DNA of 54,083 bases from Treponema sp. Lineage in GTDB: Bacteria > Spirochaetota > Spirochaetia > Treponematales > Treponemataceae. Positions 14,088 through 20,413 of the stretch are shown here, in pieces; position 1 is the stretch's first letter, and each line of letters starts with the position of its first letter. The stretch covers positions 1 through 54,083 of the forward strand of contig NZ_JAILGZ010000150.1 in the NCBI RefSeq assembly GCF_024696245.1. Direction: 5' to 3'. Position numbers and translations under genes: made by a program. Under the pieces are notes generated by a model. That model saw only the letters and a program-made list of their open reading frames with translations. It searched no databases and was not told where the DNA came from.

Positions 14088-15305
14088 TTATTCAAGGAAT
14101 TCAGAAAATAAAGAAGCAGCATCTATGCCGTTAATTACCCTTCCCGGACCATAACTTTTTATAAGGTTAGTCCTTCCGTCTTCAAGATGACGGCTTGTAA
14201 TTCCATGGTGAATTGAAACGTCTGCCTCTAAAAGAGCTGAATAATGATCAGCCAGCCTTACAAGTTTTCCGTCAACAGGTTCAAATTCATCATAGTTATA
14301 GTCTGCATTAAGCTTTTCAAAGGAAACGGCAAAAGCCTTGTCATCAAAAATAACCCTGTTCTCAAATTCATCACTTGTAAAATAAAGAATCTCATCCTTA
14401 TAAAAATCTTCCATAAGTGGAACAAGGTCAGAAGCTACAATCTGATCCTCTATTTTCTTTACGATTTCAGGCAGCCCGTCAGTGGCCTGTTTAACAGGAG
14501 AAATAATATCCCTGGTAACGCTTTCCGGCAGGTCATGAAAAAGGGCACTGAAAAAATTATTGTAGATTCTTCTTGAACACATTTTTACAGGAGCTTCCCT
14601 TAAAAAAAGCAGGGTAAGGACTGCAACAAAAAAACAGTGTCCCAAAACAGATGTAGCAGGAACTCTTGGAGTCTGATTCCACCTGGTCTGAAACCTGAGC
14701 TGTTCTATACGCATAAGGAATTCATAGGGCTTTTGTTTAGTCATAAGAAGCTGCAGGCCCCGCAAATCAAGAAAGCCCTGAAGCTGGGCATTAAGTTCAC
14801 GGCGGATTTTTTCCATTCTGTCACTTTCATTTACAGGACTTATCATCTCCAGTTCCCGTAAAGTTGAATAACGGTGGGCAGCCTTAAAAATATGAAGGGC
14901 AGCTTTCTGTTCTTCAGTAAGGATGCAGTTTCCCCCAAGACTCTCTATATAGGTAGAAAAACGATTGTAAAGATCTTCATCATCAATATAAGGCCGGTAC
15001 TGCTCTAAAACCCAGTGATTAAGCTTTACATATTCTTCAGGAAAATTCTGCTTTATAAGGGTCTGAACAGGAGCCTTAATGTCACAAAGCTGAATTTTGC
15101 GCAGAAGATGGAATACAGATGCATAAATCATCCATTCCCAGTCAATTTTAACACCCCGGTTTTCCTCATATTTTGCAATAATATAAGCAACAACCATTTT
15201 TTCTGCTTCCTTATCCATTTCTACAACTTCAAAAGGGCGGACAAGATCTGTCCATCGTTCAATAGAGAAAGCTTCAAATATCTTTAGGGCGAATTCTTTT
15301 TTCAT
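14088..15305 (-). CDS. HD-domain phosphohydrolase-like protein
   Basis: A 405-residue predicted cytosolic protein. The second half contains an HD metal-binding domain: His in VLGHCFFVAV (about residue 224), the FHDLPESVTRDIISP segment (about 257–271) with the paired His-Asp and following Glu, and a later conserved Asp in RLADHYSALLEAD. The pattern 'HDLPE…DI' is like the HD_3/YfbR group, whose studied members are nucleotide phosphohydrolases; the substrate here is unknown. The first ~200 residues are helical with no domain I recognise. The start codon overlaps the stop of the upstream gene (TAATG), so it is translationally coupled and is the last gene of the five-gene degT-like–nadK–recN operon. 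The fold call is firm, the function open. Confidence 0.8.
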   Translation of the reverse strand: MKKEFALKIFEAFSIERWTDLVRPFEVVEMDKEAEKMVVAYIIAKYEENRGVKIDWEWMIYASVFHLLRKIQLCDIKAPVQTLIKQNFPEEYVKLNHWVLEQYRPYIDDEDLYNRFSTYIESLGGNCILTEEQKAALHIFKAAHRYSTLRELEMISPVNESDRMEKIRRELNAQLQGFLDLRGLQLLMTKQKPYEFLMRIEQLRFQTRWNQTPRVPATSVLGHCFFVAVLTLLFLREAPVKMCSRRIYNNFFSALFHDLPESVTRDIISPVKQATDGLPEIVKKIEDQIVASDLVPLMEDFYKDEILYFTSDEFENRVIFDDKAFAVSFEKLNADYNYDEFEPVDGKLVRLADHYSALLEADVSIHHGITSRHLEDGRTNLIKSYGPGRVINGIDAASLFSEFLE

Positions 15306-16108
15306 TAGCGGCTGGCACCTGTCTTCTGGTCATTTTCCATTTTTTCTTTCCATACAACAGCCTTTTTACGGATTTCTTCTGAATCTTCCTTTTCACCAAG
15401 AATCATGGCTATACGGCGTAAAGCAATAAGGAAGTTTATGGCCATACGCATATCGTCAATACGTCTTGTAGAAAGTTCATAACGGTCACGGTATTCTGAT
15501 GCACTTCTGTCCAGAATCTTCTTTAAAAGCCTGATGTATTTTACAGTATCTTCATAATCAGAACTGCGGGGATCATAATAATCTTTTGCAGCCTGCTTCA
15601 TATCAAGAAGGTTTTTAGCAACAACGGCAAACCTTCCCCTGAGTTCAACAAAAGACCATTTCCACTTGGAATTATCTCCAAAGGCATCTACCAGCATCTG
15701 GGTCACAAGCCCCAGCTTTCGTACAAGATAAAAGCGCTTTTCTAAAGGAGTATTGCTGATAGTCTGAAGTTTAGGTTCAATTTCGCTGTATGGGCAGTCA
15801 ACTACATTGGATACTACTTCTTCAAGGTAAATAACTGCCTTATAAATCATTTTTCTTGCATCATTAAGGGCATCATTATTCTTTGTTTCCAGAATAGTGA
15901 CAGACAGACTGTTAATGGAAATATACAGGGTAGCTACATAAATCATCTCTTCACAAAGAAGAAGCTTTTTATATTCAACACCGCCTGAATCACGCTTCAT
16001 GACAGTAAGAATATCCTTTTCTTTTTTAAGGGACTCTTCGATTTTAGCTTTAACCGGCTTTGCTTTATCTGCAAAGTCTTCACGGCTTTCCTGAGTGATA
16101 TTTGCCAT
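15305..16108 (-). CDS. Hypothetical helical protein between recN and the HD-domain gene
   Basis: A 267-residue protein I cannot assign to a family. It is Lys/Glu-rich and almost wholly helical by composition, without signal peptide or membrane segment. A 'LLLCEEMIYVATLYISINSL' stretch is the most hydrophobic part, and several Arg-rich helices follow near the end. Both ends overlap neighbours by a single base (TAATG at each junction), so it is co-translated with RecN and the HD protein. Conserved coupling suggests a cytosolic role with one of them, but nothing in the sequence shows which. Confidence 0.7.
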   Translation of the reverse strand: MANITQESREDFADKAKPVKAKIEESLKKEKDILTVMKRDSGGVEYKKLLLCEEMIYVATLYISINSLSVTILETKNNDALNDARKMIYKAVIYLEEVVSNVVDCPYSEIEPKLQTISNTPLEKRFYLVRKLGLVTQMLVDAFGDNSKWKWSFVELRGRFAVVAKNLLDMKQAAKDYYDPRSSDYEDTVKYIRLLKKILDRSASEYRDRYELSTRRIDDMRMAINFLIALRRIAMILGEKEDSEEIRKKAVVWKEKMENDQKTGASR

Positions 16109-17823
16109 TAAAATCCTCCGAATTTCTGCAGCATGGCTCTTGCATGGTCAAGGGATTCCCCGGAACTTGAATCTCCAGAAAGCATACGGGCTATTTCCTT
16201 AACCCTGTCCTCGCCTTCCACAGGAAATACAGAAGTTGCAGTAGAATTTCCTTCAACACCCTTCTTTATCTTAATCTGATTATCGGCATAAACTGCAATA
16301 CTGGCAAGATGAGTTATACAAAGAACCTGCAGTTCTGAAGCAAGTTTTTTCATATGTTCACCTACAGCTACTGCAACTTCTCCGCCAATACCTGTATCAA
16401 TTTCGTCAAAAATAAGGGTTCCTGCTGTATCTGCAGCAGAAAGTATGGTTTTAAGGGCCAGCATTACACGGCTAAGTTCACCGCCGGAAGCTATACGTGC
16501 AAGAGGAAGCATAGGGCTGCCCGGATTGGCGCTTATAAGGAATTCAATATTATCAATTCCATAAGGACCACACTTCTGCTCTACAAGGCTGCCTTCCTTT
16601 TCTGTAAGGTTAACCTTAAATCTGGTATCCTTCATACCCAGCTTACAGAGAATTGCTTCTACTGCCCCGGACATTTTACTTGAAGCTTCCTGTCTTCTGA
16701 CACTTATTGCCTTTGCTTCAGTATACACCTCTTTTTCAAGCTGTGCGATTTCTTTTTCCAGAGAAGATTTATCATTACCCTGCCCTGTAAGCTTTTCCAG
16801 TTCATCCCTGGCCTTACGGGCATATTCATTTACATCTGCCACAGTAGAATTAATGCCGGATACATACTTTTTCTTAAGTTTATTAATCAGCTCAAGACGG
16901 TCCTGTACTTCTGCAAGACGTTCCGGGTCAAAAACCAGTTCATTCTTATACCTGCGGAATTCCCTGGCTATATCTTCTGCTTCGTAATAAGAGTTCTCTA
17001 CCCTTTCATTAAGGTTCTGCAGTTCCGGATCAAGGGAAAGTGCATGGGAAGAACTGCCCCTGAGCCTCTTATATATAGAAAGAATTCCACTGCCATCTTC
17101 ACCTTCAAGCATTGAAGTAATTTCTTCTATATCTGAATAAAGCTTTTCATAAGAAGAAAGACGACTTTCTTCTGCAGACAGCTGTTCATCTTCTCCTTCT
17201 TTAAGACGGGCTTCTTCTATTTCCGTTACGGCAAAGTTCAGCATATCGATTCTTGCTTCCCTTTCTGCTTCATTTGTATTCATGGAAGAAAGAATTTCCC
17301 TTTTTTCTACAAGCCGGTTATAAAGTCCTGTAAATGCCTGAACCTGAGGAACTATATCTGCATAAATATCAAGATAACGGCGGTGCTGACTTACCTTCAT
17401 AAGGGACTGCTGTTCATGCTGACCGTGAAGATCTACAAGATAAGTTGCAAAATCTGCCAGATCTGCCTTTGTAACCGGAACTCCACCAATCCAGGCGGAA
17501 GTTTTGCCTGTATCCCTTACAAGGCGGCGTAAAAGAATACGTCCCTCATCAGCTTCTATACCATGCTCTTCAAGCCAGTCCCAGGCACTTTCCAGACTTC
17601 CTTTTTTTTCTTCAAGTAAAAAGCTTCCGCTTACCTGAGCTTCGTGACAGCCTGTCCTGATCTGCTCAAGACCCGCCTTTCCTCCTAAAAGAAAAGCAAG
17701 GCTGCCTATGAGAATGGACTTACCTGCACCTGTTTCGCCGCTTAAAACAGTAAAACCTTTATTAAAATCTACATGAGCACTGTCTATCAGGGCAAAATTT
17801 TTTATATCAAGTTCTTCAAGCAC
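16108..17823 (-). CDS. recN: DNA repair protein RecN
   Basis: An SMC-like ATPase acting in double-strand break repair. Of 571 residues, the N-terminal head opens MLEELDIKNFALID and has the Walker A motif GETGAGKS at 29–36. A long coiled-coil region spans about 160–380. The C-terminal head has the ABC signature ASGGELSRVMLALK, the Walker B 'TLIFDEIDTGIGGE' and the 'CITHLASIA' H-loop. This order is diagnostic for RecN and the length is normal. It overlaps nadK by 8 bases; the recN–nadK pairing is frequent in bacteria. Confidence 0.97.
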   Translation of the reverse strand: MLEELDIKNFALIDSAHVDFNKGFTVLSGETGAGKSILIGSLAFLLGGKAGLEQIRTGCHEAQVSGSFLLEEKKGSLESAWDWLEEHGIEADEGRILLRRLVRDTGKTSAWIGGVPVTKADLADFATYLVDLHGQHEQQSLMKVSQHRRYLDIYADIVPQVQAFTGLYNRLVEKREILSSMNTNEAEREARIDMLNFAVTEIEEARLKEGEDEQLSAEESRLSSYEKLYSDIEEITSMLEGEDGSGILSIYKRLRGSSSHALSLDPELQNLNERVENSYYEAEDIAREFRRYKNELVFDPERLAEVQDRLELINKLKKKYVSGINSTVADVNEYARKARDELEKLTGQGNDKSSLEKEIAQLEKEVYTEAKAISVRRQEASSKMSGAVEAILCKLGMKDTRFKVNLTEKEGSLVEQKCGPYGIDNIEFLISANPGSPMLPLARIASGGELSRVMLALKTILSAADTAGTLIFDEIDTGIGGEVAVAVGEHMKKLASELQVLCITHLASIAVYADNQIKIKKGVEGNSTATSVFPVEGEDRVKEIARMLSGDSSSGESLDHARAMLQKFGGF

Positions 17824-18670
17824 GGGGACCTCCGGACCAGTTTAGCTTACTTTGAAGGGCACTGTAGAATTTTTCCTGGGTGGAACCAATTATCCGTGCC
17901 TTATATTTTGAAATACCAGAAATTATTACATCACCAGTTTGTAATGGAAAATCAATCTGACCGTCTGCCACAAGTACTATATCTACCCTTGAAGGCAGAA
18001 CCCTCATGGCAATTTCACCTTCCGGCCCTAAAACCAGAGGCCTTGCAGACAGACTGAAAGAACTTATAGGTGTAAGTACAACTGCATTAAGGGAAGGTTC
18101 TACAATAGGCCCCCCTGCAGCTGCTGAATATGCTGTCGAACCGGTGGCTGTAGAAACAATAACTCCGGTAGATTTAAATGAACCTAAAAGAGCCCTGTTG
18201 TAGGCAACTTCAAGATTAACAAGACCGGAAGCAGTTGTACCAGAAATTACAGTATCATTCATACAGCGGCTTTTAAAAACTGAACGTCCGCCCCTTAATA
18301 CTTCTGATTCAAGAAGGTTTCTCTCGCTTATAAGAGACTTTCCACTAAGGTATTCTTCCAGTTCTTTCTGCCACATATCCTTCTGAACCCCTGCAAGAAA
18401 ACCAAATTCCCCAAGATTAACAGGGAAAACAGGTATTCCATAAAGGGCACATTCCCTGGCTGCAAAAAGTACTGTTCCGTCACCTCCAAGGGTAACTGCA
18501 AAATCATAGCCGGAAAAATCTACGGGAAGATTCCTTGTATGGGCATCCTTTCCGTCATAGGCATACAAATCTGCCTTAAGTCCCTTTGACTCAAGATAGG
18601 TCTTTATGTCACCGGCAATGCGGTCTGCGTCTTTCTTAAATGTATTAACCAGAATAAGACTTTTTTCCAT
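17816..18670 (-). CDS. nadK: NAD kinase
   Basis: Phosphorylates NAD to NADP in the cytosol. The 284-residue protein has the family hallmark GGDGT at residues 62–66 and a conserved NDT motif (NE/D segment, 'CMNDTVISG'). It also has the glycine-rich 'VSTATGSTAYSAAAGGPIV' nucleotide-binding loop and 'LVLGPEGEIAMRVL' near the C-terminal sheet. Length is typical. GGAG lies upstream of ATG 18670, inside the end of the preceding gene's spacer. It is second in the operon, overlapping recN by 8 bases. Confidence 0.96.
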   Translation of the reverse strand: MEKSLILVNTFKKDADRIAGDIKTYLESKGLKADLYAYDGKDAHTRNLPVDFSGYDFAVTLGGDGTVLFAARECALYGIPVFPVNLGEFGFLAGVQKDMWQKELEEYLSGKSLISERNLLESEVLRGGRSVFKSRCMNDTVISGTTASGLVNLEVAYNRALLGSFKSTGVIVSTATGSTAYSAAAGGPIVEPSLNAVVLTPISSFSLSARPLVLGPEGEIAMRVLPSRVDIVLVADGQIDFPLQTGDVIISGISKYKARIIGSTQEKFYSALQSKLNWSGGPRA

Positions 18671-18683
18671 CAGCGCTCCGCTA

Positions 18684-19787
18684 TTACGGTAACGAAGAAA
18701 GTACCTTTACGATACGGGAGGCATCCTTCTGACCCAGTCTTGGATACAAAGGAAAAAGAGCACACCTTAAAAGCAGGGAATTGGCACAAATACACTGAGA
18801 AGAAAGTTCTTCCTGCTTAAAGGCAATTACAGAGTTTTCAAAAGCCTGACGTACTTCTATTCCTTTTTTCTGGGCATAAAGTTTTACGTCTTTAAAACCG
18901 GAATTAAGTACAAGAGGGAATGAGTATATAGTAGAATTATTATCCTGACCCCTTACAAAAGTCTTGTGTCTGCCTGACATAACGGCTCTTGAAAAAAGGG
19001 TAAAGAGTTCCTGTCTTACTTTTTCGTTTCTGGTAAATTCCTTAAGTTCAACAAAAGCCAGGGCTGCATTCATATCAGGCATAAAGTCTGTAGAAGGAGC
19101 CTGGTCGGCTATTGCCTTAAGGGGACTCCATTCACGGCGTTTAGGAGCAATAACAAGGGCTCCGCCTCCGGCTGTTACAATATCATGCTCTTCCATTCCA
19201 AGAATTGCATACAGTCCGTACATACCTGCCCTGCGGCCTTTTTCCTCTTCCTTTGCTGAATCAGAAGAAGATGCAGGTGCAGAATCTGCTTCAGGCTGCT
19301 CTTCTTCGTATTCAGCAGGATAATAAGAAAGGGCTGAATGAGATATTTCTTCGATTACAGGTATTTCCAGGGCAAGATACTGCCTTATATCCGGAAGAAT
19401 TCCCATTGTTTCACTTAAAATAAGAAGTCTTCCGCCGTTTTTTATTGCTTCTTCTACGGTTTCTACACTTACCAGGGCATTTTCTTCCTGAACATCAAGA
19501 ATCATTGTCTTATACCCAAGCTTTTCAAGAGTTACGTAAAGCCAGTAAGGAGCAAGGGCACTGATCATAACAGCACTGTCTTTATCAAGATTTATTGCTT
19601 TAAGAACGTATTCAAGGGCAATTGCAGGACTTCTGACAGCTACAGCACCGTCACAGCCGGTTAATTCTTTGGCTGTCTGTACAAGTCTAAGGGTCATTTC
19701 TCCAGGACCGATTTTTTCGTCAACCATACAGGTAAGTACGGCTTCCATTTCCCGTCTCCTGATTGTGGAACTATAAGTCTGTATCAT
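18684..19787 (-). CDS. DegT/DnrJ/EryC1/StrS-fold protein lacking the PLP lysine
   Basis: A 367-residue protein with the overall layout of sugar aminotransferases of the DegT family. Near residue 45 CDGAVAVRSPAIALEYVL corresponds to 'VxxSGTxAL', near 92–99 YKTMILDV to 'PVFVDVD', near 143–151 PVIEEISHS to 'VIEDxAQA', and near 201–209 HDIVTAGGG to 'KxLTTGEGG'. At the position of the Schiff-base lysine it has His201, and the PLP-ring aspartate is Glu147. A Glu/Ser/Ala-rich insert (about 158–185) interrupts the domain. A normal aminotransferase reaction is therefore unlikely. A Lys-to-His change is known in the dehydratase ColD, which still uses PLP, but there is no sugar pathway here; the neighbours are nadK and recN. 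It is the first gene of its operon, and the ribosome-binding site is weak. Confidence 0.7.
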   Translation of the reverse strand: MIQTYSSTIRRREMEAVLTCMVDEKIGPGEMTLRLVQTAKELTGCDGAVAVRSPAIALEYVLKAINLDKDSAVMISALAPYWLYVTLEKLGYKTMILDVQEENALVSVETVEEAIKNGGRLLILSETMGILPDIRQYLALEIPVIEEISHSALSYYPAEYEEEQPEADSAPASSSDSAKEEEKGRRAGMYGLYAILGMEEHDIVTAGGGALVIAPKRREWSPLKAIADQAPSTDFMPDMNAALAFVELKEFTRNEKVRQELFTLFSRAVMSGRHKTFVRGQDNNSTIYSFPLVLNSGFKDVKLYAQKKGIEVRQAFENSVIAFKQEELSSQCICANSLLLRCALFPLYPRLGQKDASRIVKVLSSLP

Positions 19788-19906: not shown

Positions 19907-20413
19907 TTACTTTTCTTCTTCGTCTTCAGAATCATCACCAAGCATCTTCTGAAGTTCTTTTGCACTAAAGAGCTTACGGATGTCCATAATAATAAGGTAG
20001 GAATTATCCTGCTGGACAACTCCCTGAATATATTCTGTACCAATACCGCTGAGCATCTGAGGCGGAGCCTTTATTTCTGCTGAATTAACAGGTACTACCC
20101 TGGCAATACGGTCAATAATAATACCTATCTTATTACCTTCAATATCAAGGATGATAAATCCACCATCATCATCGGTAAGATCACCGTCTGAGTCCTTAGC
20201 AAGCTTTGTAATATAAAAACGCTTATGAAGGTTCATAATCGGGATAATTTCACTGCGAAGATTGATGATTCCTTCTACATAATATGGAGCATTAGGAATC
20301 GGACGAACCGGCTGTACCTTTACGATTTCCTTGACGTCCATAATGTCCACGCCGTACAATTCATCACCGAGTTGAAAAGTAACAAGCTGAAACTGAGTAT
20401 TTTCTTCGGCCAT
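19907..20413 (-). CDS. cheW: Chemotaxis coupling protein CheW
   Basis: A 168-residue single-domain adaptor that links chemoreceptors to the kinase CheA in the cytoplasm. The family signature is complete: QLVTFQLGDELYGVDI at 8–23, 'VKEIVKVQPVRPIPNAP' and 'VEGIINLRSEIIPIMNL', which holds the conserved Asn-Leu-Arg segment, then 'IDRIARVV' and 'YIQGVVQQDNSYLIIMDI'. The C-terminus is an acidic tail (DDSEDEEEK). It stands alone with its own promoter and terminator, with no other chemotaxis gene in the window. AGGAG lies 7 bases before ATG 20413. Confidence 0.96.
   Translation of the reverse strand: MAEENTQFQLVTFQLGDELYGVDIMDVKEIVKVQPVRPIPNAPYYVEGIINLRSEIIPIMNLHKRFYITKLAKDSDGDLTDDDGGFIILDIEGNKIGIIIDRIARVVPVNSAEIKAPPQMLSGIGTEYIQGVVQQDNSYLIIMDIRKLFSAKELQKMLGDDSEDEEEK

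Follow-up and report, generated by a model that had tools for sequence, protein, structure and literature searches.

A probable ancient pseudo-aminotransferase of the DegT fold in Treponema and other spirochaetes

The stretch of DNA analysed here (the window, 54,083 nucleotides of a Treponema contig) encodes, next to a gene for NAD kinase, a protein of the DegT/DnrJ/EryC1/StrS superfamily in which the PLP lysine cannot be found at its usual place. This raises the question of whether the protein is an aminotransferase after all, a dehydratase of the ColD type in which histidine has replaced the lysine, as proposed in a preliminary description of the sequence, or a non-enzymatic descendant of such enzymes. 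The open reading frame is intact and its product matches a single Pfam family, DegT_DnrJ_EryC1, over residues 9–363, scoring 65.1 bits against a curated cut-off of 19.8; this match and a DegT fold in the predicted structure place it in the superfamily. Against the NCBIfam models of sugar aminotransferases (ArnB, PseC, LegC-family) the window protein reached at best 46.3 bits with a cut-off of 631, and four further family members fell under every listed cut-off of these models. The AlphaFold (AF2) monomer model, built on an alignment of 81 sequences, falls below a pLDDT of 50 at residues 1–7 and 160–180, and its top structural matches are ArnB (Z 39.4, 2.4 Å over 335 residues) and GDP-perosamine synthase. 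The acidic Ser/Ala insert already noted from the translation is indeed there; its residues 160–180 are disordered in the model, and among the 81 sequences the segment between positions 153 and 186 ranges from 15 to 45 residues. The same genome encodes a second DegT protein (L001) with its lysine intact. Searches of openly licensed literature listed no paper that dealt with the family, as judged by title.

Table 1. Features of the window. Residue numbers are those of the 367-aa product; Treponema counts refer to 81 sequences, whose named loci are the best 80 of 433.
Feature	Coordinates	Strand	Evidence or remark
DegT-fold putative pseudo-aminotransferase, 367 aa	18684..19787	-	PF01041, E 8.5e-18; AF2 mean pLDDT 87.5; ArnB Z 39; dN/dS 0.045
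Arg52 codon, new invariant, three before the former phosphate-binding Thr	19632..19634	-	Arg in 73/73 of the class; canonical (30) mostly Ser/Ala/Gly/Asn
Glu147 codon, corresponding to the Asp that touches PLP N1	19347..19349	-	ArnB Asp160 maps there; Asp in 80/81
Acidic Ser/Ala-rich insert, residues 158-185	19233..19316	-	Largely disordered; relatives differ in length
Glu199 codon, new invariant	19191..19193	-	Glu in 73/73 of the class; canonical Tyr 17, Phe 10, His 3 of 30
His201 codon, variable, immediately ahead of the lysine position	19185..19187	-	His in 9/81; ArnB Ile187 maps there
Asp202 codon, PLP lysine position	19182..19184	-	ArnB Lys188 maps there; canonical Lys 30/30; Asp in 81/81 Treponema
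cheW, 119 bp upstream	19907..20413	-	PF01584, E 9.5e-34
nadK (NAD kinase), 13 bp downstream	17816..18670	-	PF20143, E 8e-27; PF01513, E 2.6e-14
recN	16108..17823	-	TIGR00634 above cut-off, E 3.2e-177
All-helical protein, 267 aa, family unassigned, after recN	15305..16108	-	AF2 mean pLDDT 94.8; no Pfam or NCBIfam match
HD-domain protein (HD_3, YfbR-like), 405 aa, after the 267-aa protein, same gene row	14088..15305	-	

ArnB (UDP-4-amino-4-deoxy-L-arabinose aminotransferase; 1MDO, 4OCA and 8SNG) and the window model share the same fold over their whole length (Z 38.8–39.4, rmsd 2.4–2.5 over 335 residues) at 21–22% identity, and GDP-perosamine synthase (3BN1, 3DR4) matches the model at Z 38.8–38.9. 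The latter uses PLP and has a lysine, named as K186 in the title of 3DR4, at a place where the window protein has none. Absence of the PLP lysine, as first described from the letters, is borne out; its supposed replacement by His201 is not, since Asp202 is the residue found opposite the lysine. In a MAFFT alignment the lysine of 30/30 canonical spirochaete DegT paralogues falls in column 202, and Escherichia coli ArnB aligns with its Lys188 at Asp202 and its Ile187 at His201. An hhalign comparison of two profiles ran without a gap across the motif and set Lys opposite Asp202, and the HMMER match to 7b0m, ungapped over the motif, did the same. The HMMER match to ArnB also pairs Lys with Asp202, but has a one-residue gap seven residues ahead of the lysine. 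Finally, a profile of 21 members from other classes found GDP-perosamine synthase (3bn1) as its best PDB sequence match (E 1.2e-66), with the lysine of that enzyme in the same family column. Among 81 Treponema sequences, whose named loci are the best 80 of 433 relatives and were assigned to Treponema from record titles, column 202 is invariably Asp, and column 201 holds Arg in 36, Lys in 12, Asn in 10, His in 9, Phe in 8, Thr and Gln in two each, and Tyr and Glu in one each.

The loss extends well beyond Treponema. We took a sample of 167 family members, from genomes hand-picked from hit lists. For the MAFFT alignment with the 30 canonical paralogues, family and canonical proteins had been told apart by profile score (family at least 140 bits, the lowest being 154.1; highest canonical score 105.4); that alignment omitted duplicate ORFs, L002–L006 and the 80 named loci from Treponema. 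At column 202 the lysine is missing in 160 of the 167 members, the column being made up of Asp 80, Met 24, Ser 16, Gly 10, Arg 10, His 10, Lys 7, Asn 3, Glu 3 and one each of Thr, Cys, Ala and Gln; all 31 canonical rows have Lys there, and none of the 73 rows of the window's class does (the class, Spirochaetia, is meant here as the sequences marked as the window's class or nearer). A Lys stands in column 201 in a further 15 members, ten of them from this class, and if either register is allowed up to 22 of the 167 would have the residue, leaving it missing in 145. Single members aligned to the canonical profile gave an unstable picture over the motif: of the 43 alignments from the class that span it, 19 set Asp, Ser, Gly or Asn opposite the Lys and 24 shift or misalign, including four (L058 and L060–L062) in which the column-201 Lys pairs with the canonical one; the window protein itself had no motif-spanning alignment among these. 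Judged from the alignments as a whole, the lysine is not conserved in the family under either register. In five members from other classes (L222, L272, L302, L303 and L304) a Lys immediately precedes the lysine column and little else of the PLP site is kept; single-sequence alignment sets this early Lys at the canonical one by way of a one-residue gap.

The register bears directly on the proposed dehydratase. According to the passages of PMC8987622 that treat them, the 3-dehydratases E1, ColD and SpnQ use PMP and carry His in place of the lysine itself. They are thus like the window protein in having a DegT fold without the lysine, and the fold is the same (ColD double mutant 3gr9, Z 36.1; 2gms profile, E 1.5e-17); they differ in that the window protein has Asp at the lysine position, with His201 preceding it, and has lost most of the PLP contacts. 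A nucleotide-sugar 3-dehydratase using His201 as its catalytic base fails as an explanation because Asp202 is invariant in the 81 Treponema sequences (named loci being the best 80 of 433) and column 201 is not, with His in 9 of them; on the grounds of register and variability we rejected it for the window protein and regard it as highly improbable. A survey of whether the His is conserved, suggested with that proposal, turned out against it. Also gone from the cofactor site are the Thr and Ser that bind the phosphate, the aromatic residue at the ring and the Glu, and the scanned neighbours, as had been noticed from the start, are not sugar genes, the flanks being cheW on one side and nadK–recN on the other. 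There are other lineages in which His does lie exactly in the lysine column (10/167, in families f29 and f18: L094, L100, L217, L230, L270, L275, L277, L281, L284 and L301), and because of this position a ColD-like activity is a fair question for those members, though not for the window protein.

We then considered how much else of the PLP site is left. For a relative, Spr1654, the relevant passages of PMC5936713 list these contacts: Lys199; Asp170 and His173, to N1 and O3' respectively; Tyr84, which lies against the ring; two phosphate contacts, Thr59 and Ser194; and Glu205 and Gly206, which act through water. Seven contacts were scored at the ArnB equivalents 64, 89, 160, 163, 183, 188 and 194, with the residues allowed being, in this order, T/S, W/F/Y, D, H/Q/N, S/T, K and E/D; the scores reflect alignment columns rather than distances. 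Canonical enzymes keep all seven in 24 of 31 cases, six in six cases and five in one. The window protein (A, P, E, H, G, D, G) keeps one, with Thr64, Trp89, Ser183, Lys188 and Glu194 of ArnB corresponding to Ala55, Pro80, Gly197, Asp202 and Gly208. Its class (n=73) is similarly depleted, with one contact kept in 8 rows, two in 47, three in 14 and four in 4. Taken contact by contact, the class retains Thr/Ser64 in 12 rows, the aromatic residue in none, Asp160 in 71, His/Gln/Asn163 in 62, Ser/Thr183 in 15, and both Lys and Glu/Asp in none; for the core of the other classes (n=78) the numbers in the same order are 51, 1, 77, 32, 34, 1 and 9, and for the basal rows bearing Lys or Arg (n=16) they are 13, 0, 15, 16, 16, 6 and 0. 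The class has also fixed new residues of its own, with Arg11, Arg52, Glu199 and Asn240 in 73/73 rows and Pro28 in 72/73. A family consensus shows the N-terminal motif TI-x-RKE. The non-enzymatic descendant that the preliminary description had offered as its second option fits the evidence far better than a dehydratase, while leaving some room for a lysine-independent activity.

A working aminotransferase might still draw its lysine from elsewhere in the pocket, and such a residue had been named in advance as something that would overturn the case. We looked for it. Three lysines of the window protein, residues 299, 308 and 361, recur in 60, 66 and 60 of the 73 rows respectively, but none of them aligns with any of the seven PLP-contact columns (in terms of the alignment, not of distances in three dimensions), and the only frequent lysines in the stretches scanned around the contacts are at ArnB columns 68 (27/73) and 187 (10/73). 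The phosphate and aromatic contacts have been lost as well, and we hold a relocated lysine to be very unlikely.

More weight attaches to a B6 protein that does without the lysine, holding PLP or PMP non-covalently as a carrier, a sensor or a PMP enzyme. The Asp that contacts the pyridine N1 is retained in 71/73 rows of the class and 77/78 rows of the other classes, and the His/Gln/Asn at 163 in 62/73 rows of the class; the use of PMP by E1, ColD and SpnQ with a His for the lysine, as reported in the passages of PMC8987622 noted above, offers a precedent. On the other hand the phosphate-binding side chains are mostly lost in the class (12/73 and 15/73 kept), and the aromatic residue and the Glu are lost in all 73 rows, and we consider this reading unlikely. 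The retained Asp would seem odd if nothing PLP-like were bound, and it is the main unexplained point of the family. The Glu147 seen at this column in the window was read correctly from the translation; as a trait it is peculiar to the window protein and its nearest relative, with Asp in 80 of 81 Treponema sequences (named loci being the best 80 of 433) and in 71 of the 73 rows of the class.

With respect to its spread, a homologue was present in 59/59 of the genomes searched in the window's order, the window's own included. Of 247 genomes of the phylum, 194 had a match to the single protein, although ordinary DegT proteins may account for some of these, and the profile from the other classes gave one in 230 of the 247, a count that includes ordinary DegT enzymes. 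A FastTree phylogeny computed without the lysine column grouped the 167 members with a support of 0.898 and, within them, a lysine-less clade of 148 members with 0.916; its outgroup consisted only of 30 canonical spirochaete proteins and ArnB, and these 31 rows did not form one clade after rooting. An IQ-TREE phylogeny of 88 rows, including 24 of the 73 from the class, separated the 30 canonical rows from the family by a 100/100 branch. Outside the clade of 148 lie all seven Lys and ten Arg rows and the pair L079/L080 (Gly and Thr), the placement of this pair and of the Lys row L287 being weak (support 0.394). Because the Arg lineages and L079/L080 fall outside the main lysine-less clade, the loss was not a single event; the simplest reading of the trees would be that the main clade lost the residue once, early on, that a few side lines replaced it independently at later dates, and that inheritance was vertical from then on. 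The Arg rows come from f22, presumed to be Brachyspiraceae, and f50 (L082, L102, L260, L261, L263, L264, L265, L267, L278 and L280). One genus of f22, g74 (L224 and L266), has Lys in the lysine column and is a possible live intermediate of the loss.

The gene is under strong purifying selection. Against its nearest relative (L008) it has a dN of 0.047 and a dS of 1.04, a ratio of about 0.045, compared with 0.107 for NadK (dN 0.126, dS 1.18) and 0.021 for CheW (dN 0.020, dS 0.95), so that it lies under the former and not under the latter; as dS is near 1 all these ratios are rough. The value led us to reject a pseudogene, and it also bears on the idea of a decaying relic retained merely through its place in an operon. 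The best argument for such a relic is that presumed Borreliaceae manage without the gene in 16 of 16 genomes; set against it are the low dN/dS, 21 columns that are invariant across 18 divergent sequences, and retention of the gene in a 1.14 Mb genome (G114, L063) of the same family as the window. We therefore consider decay extremely improbable.

The explanation that we favor, with a probability of roughly 0.7, is that of an ancient pseudo-aminotransferase, passed down vertically, whose pocket has been rebuilt. On this reading of the sequences, a line of the DegT/ArnB fold would have lost its Schiff-base lysine at an early stage in the history of the spirochaetes, and afterwards most of its PLP site, including the Thr and Ser for the phosphate, the aromatic residue at the ring and the Glu; in the class a pocket would have been rebuilt around the invariant Arg52, Glu199 and Asn240 and the nearly always present Asp202, the Asp of column 147 being retained. 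We infer that the window protein does not transaminate, that, like its relatives, it probably forms a homodimer, and that it would bind a partner protein or a ligand other than PLP and serve in regulation or as a scaffold, not as a sugar enzyme. The standard sugar-aminotransferase label of the gene is probably wrong, because the PLP lysine and most other residues of B6 chemistry have been lost in a family that is nevertheless tightly conserved.

In the class, NadK is encoded directly downstream in 68 of 72 loci (duplicates removed, window excluded) according to the script and in 71 of 72 after inspection, the misses at L071, L077 and L093 being overlapping frames and that at L067 a real one. 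CheW is encoded directly upstream in 64 of the 69 loci with room by script, or 66 with the inclusion of L068, a case of overlapping frames, and L048, which has a gap of several hundred bp. A further 59 named Treponema loci (those of the best 80 of 433 remaining after removal of sequences already counted) have NadK next in 57/57 and CheW before in 57/58 cases with room, a point on which a survey of treponemes had been suggested. The order cheW–degT–nadK–recN is conserved in the window's class. Of 127 rows, 123 gave a distance from cheW to degT: zero or overlapping in 23, 1–30 bp in 57, 31–150 bp in 35 and more than 150 bp in 8. Given that cheW lies upstream on the same strand, and that 80 of the 123 loci have no more than 30 bp between the two genes, the gene is probably not the leader of the nadK–recN operon, as had been supposed, although its place ahead of nadK and recN was correctly seen.

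The description of the gene as locked to nadK–recN holds for the class and not for the rest of the phylum. Among members from the other classes, no more than 7 of 34 are followed by NadK, and of the 32 with room upstream, 3 have CheW there; 25 of the 34 adjoin neither gene and have, for example, a PTPS gene or an RlpA/SPOR-type gene as neighbours. Because most of these members lie elsewhere, the case for a functional link with nadK throughout the family is weakened. In six other-class genomes (L079, L080, L213, L214, L215 and L219) the DegT gene is followed by a gene cluster whose representative belongs to the 6-pyruvoyl tetrahydropterin synthase (PTPS) family. The presumed Borreliaceae, 16 genomes of f7 of 0.9–1.8 Mb from the window's own class, had no family match, and in all 16 (L236–L251) cheW adjoins nadK with no DegT gene between them, likely a natural loss. 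A more specific proposal, in which the old PLP pocket has become a site for another ligand and the protein is a putative sensor or partner for NAD kinase or CheW, is one that we think rather improbable; under it the Asp that has been kept might bind the pyridine ring of another compound, for instance nicotinamide.

These observations have a bearing on annotation, for a family-based assignment would turn this DegT-fold gene into an "aminotransferase" and so predict amino-sugar chemistry, when its lineage, found across the phylum, lacks key residues of that chemistry and yet is strongly selected. The pseudo-aminotransferase reading would also make the family a case of the change from enzyme to pseudoenzyme of which possible intermediates (Lys, Arg and His) are still living, and would place next to cheW and nadK a missing piece of spirochaete biology that is open to testing.

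Two minor observations concern the surroundings of these genes. The only sugar-flavoured context among the clusters scanned is shared by L096, L098, L221 and L227, in which genes for an RsmE-type methyltransferase, a WecG-type glycosyltransferase and a GlmU-like hexapeptide protein are followed by the DegT gene and nadK. The 267-aa protein encoded after recN had no relative in searches of Pfam, NCBIfam and PDB sequences, and fold comparisons with its model, with an alignment of 49 of the 64 available relatives, gave nothing clear (top Foldseek hit a designed protein, E 2.9e-3; highest VIA-align Z 12.1). It is nevertheless present in 64 of the 80 named loci from Treponema (best 80 of 433 relatives), several of the others being short contigs, and it is also found in other spirochaete classes.
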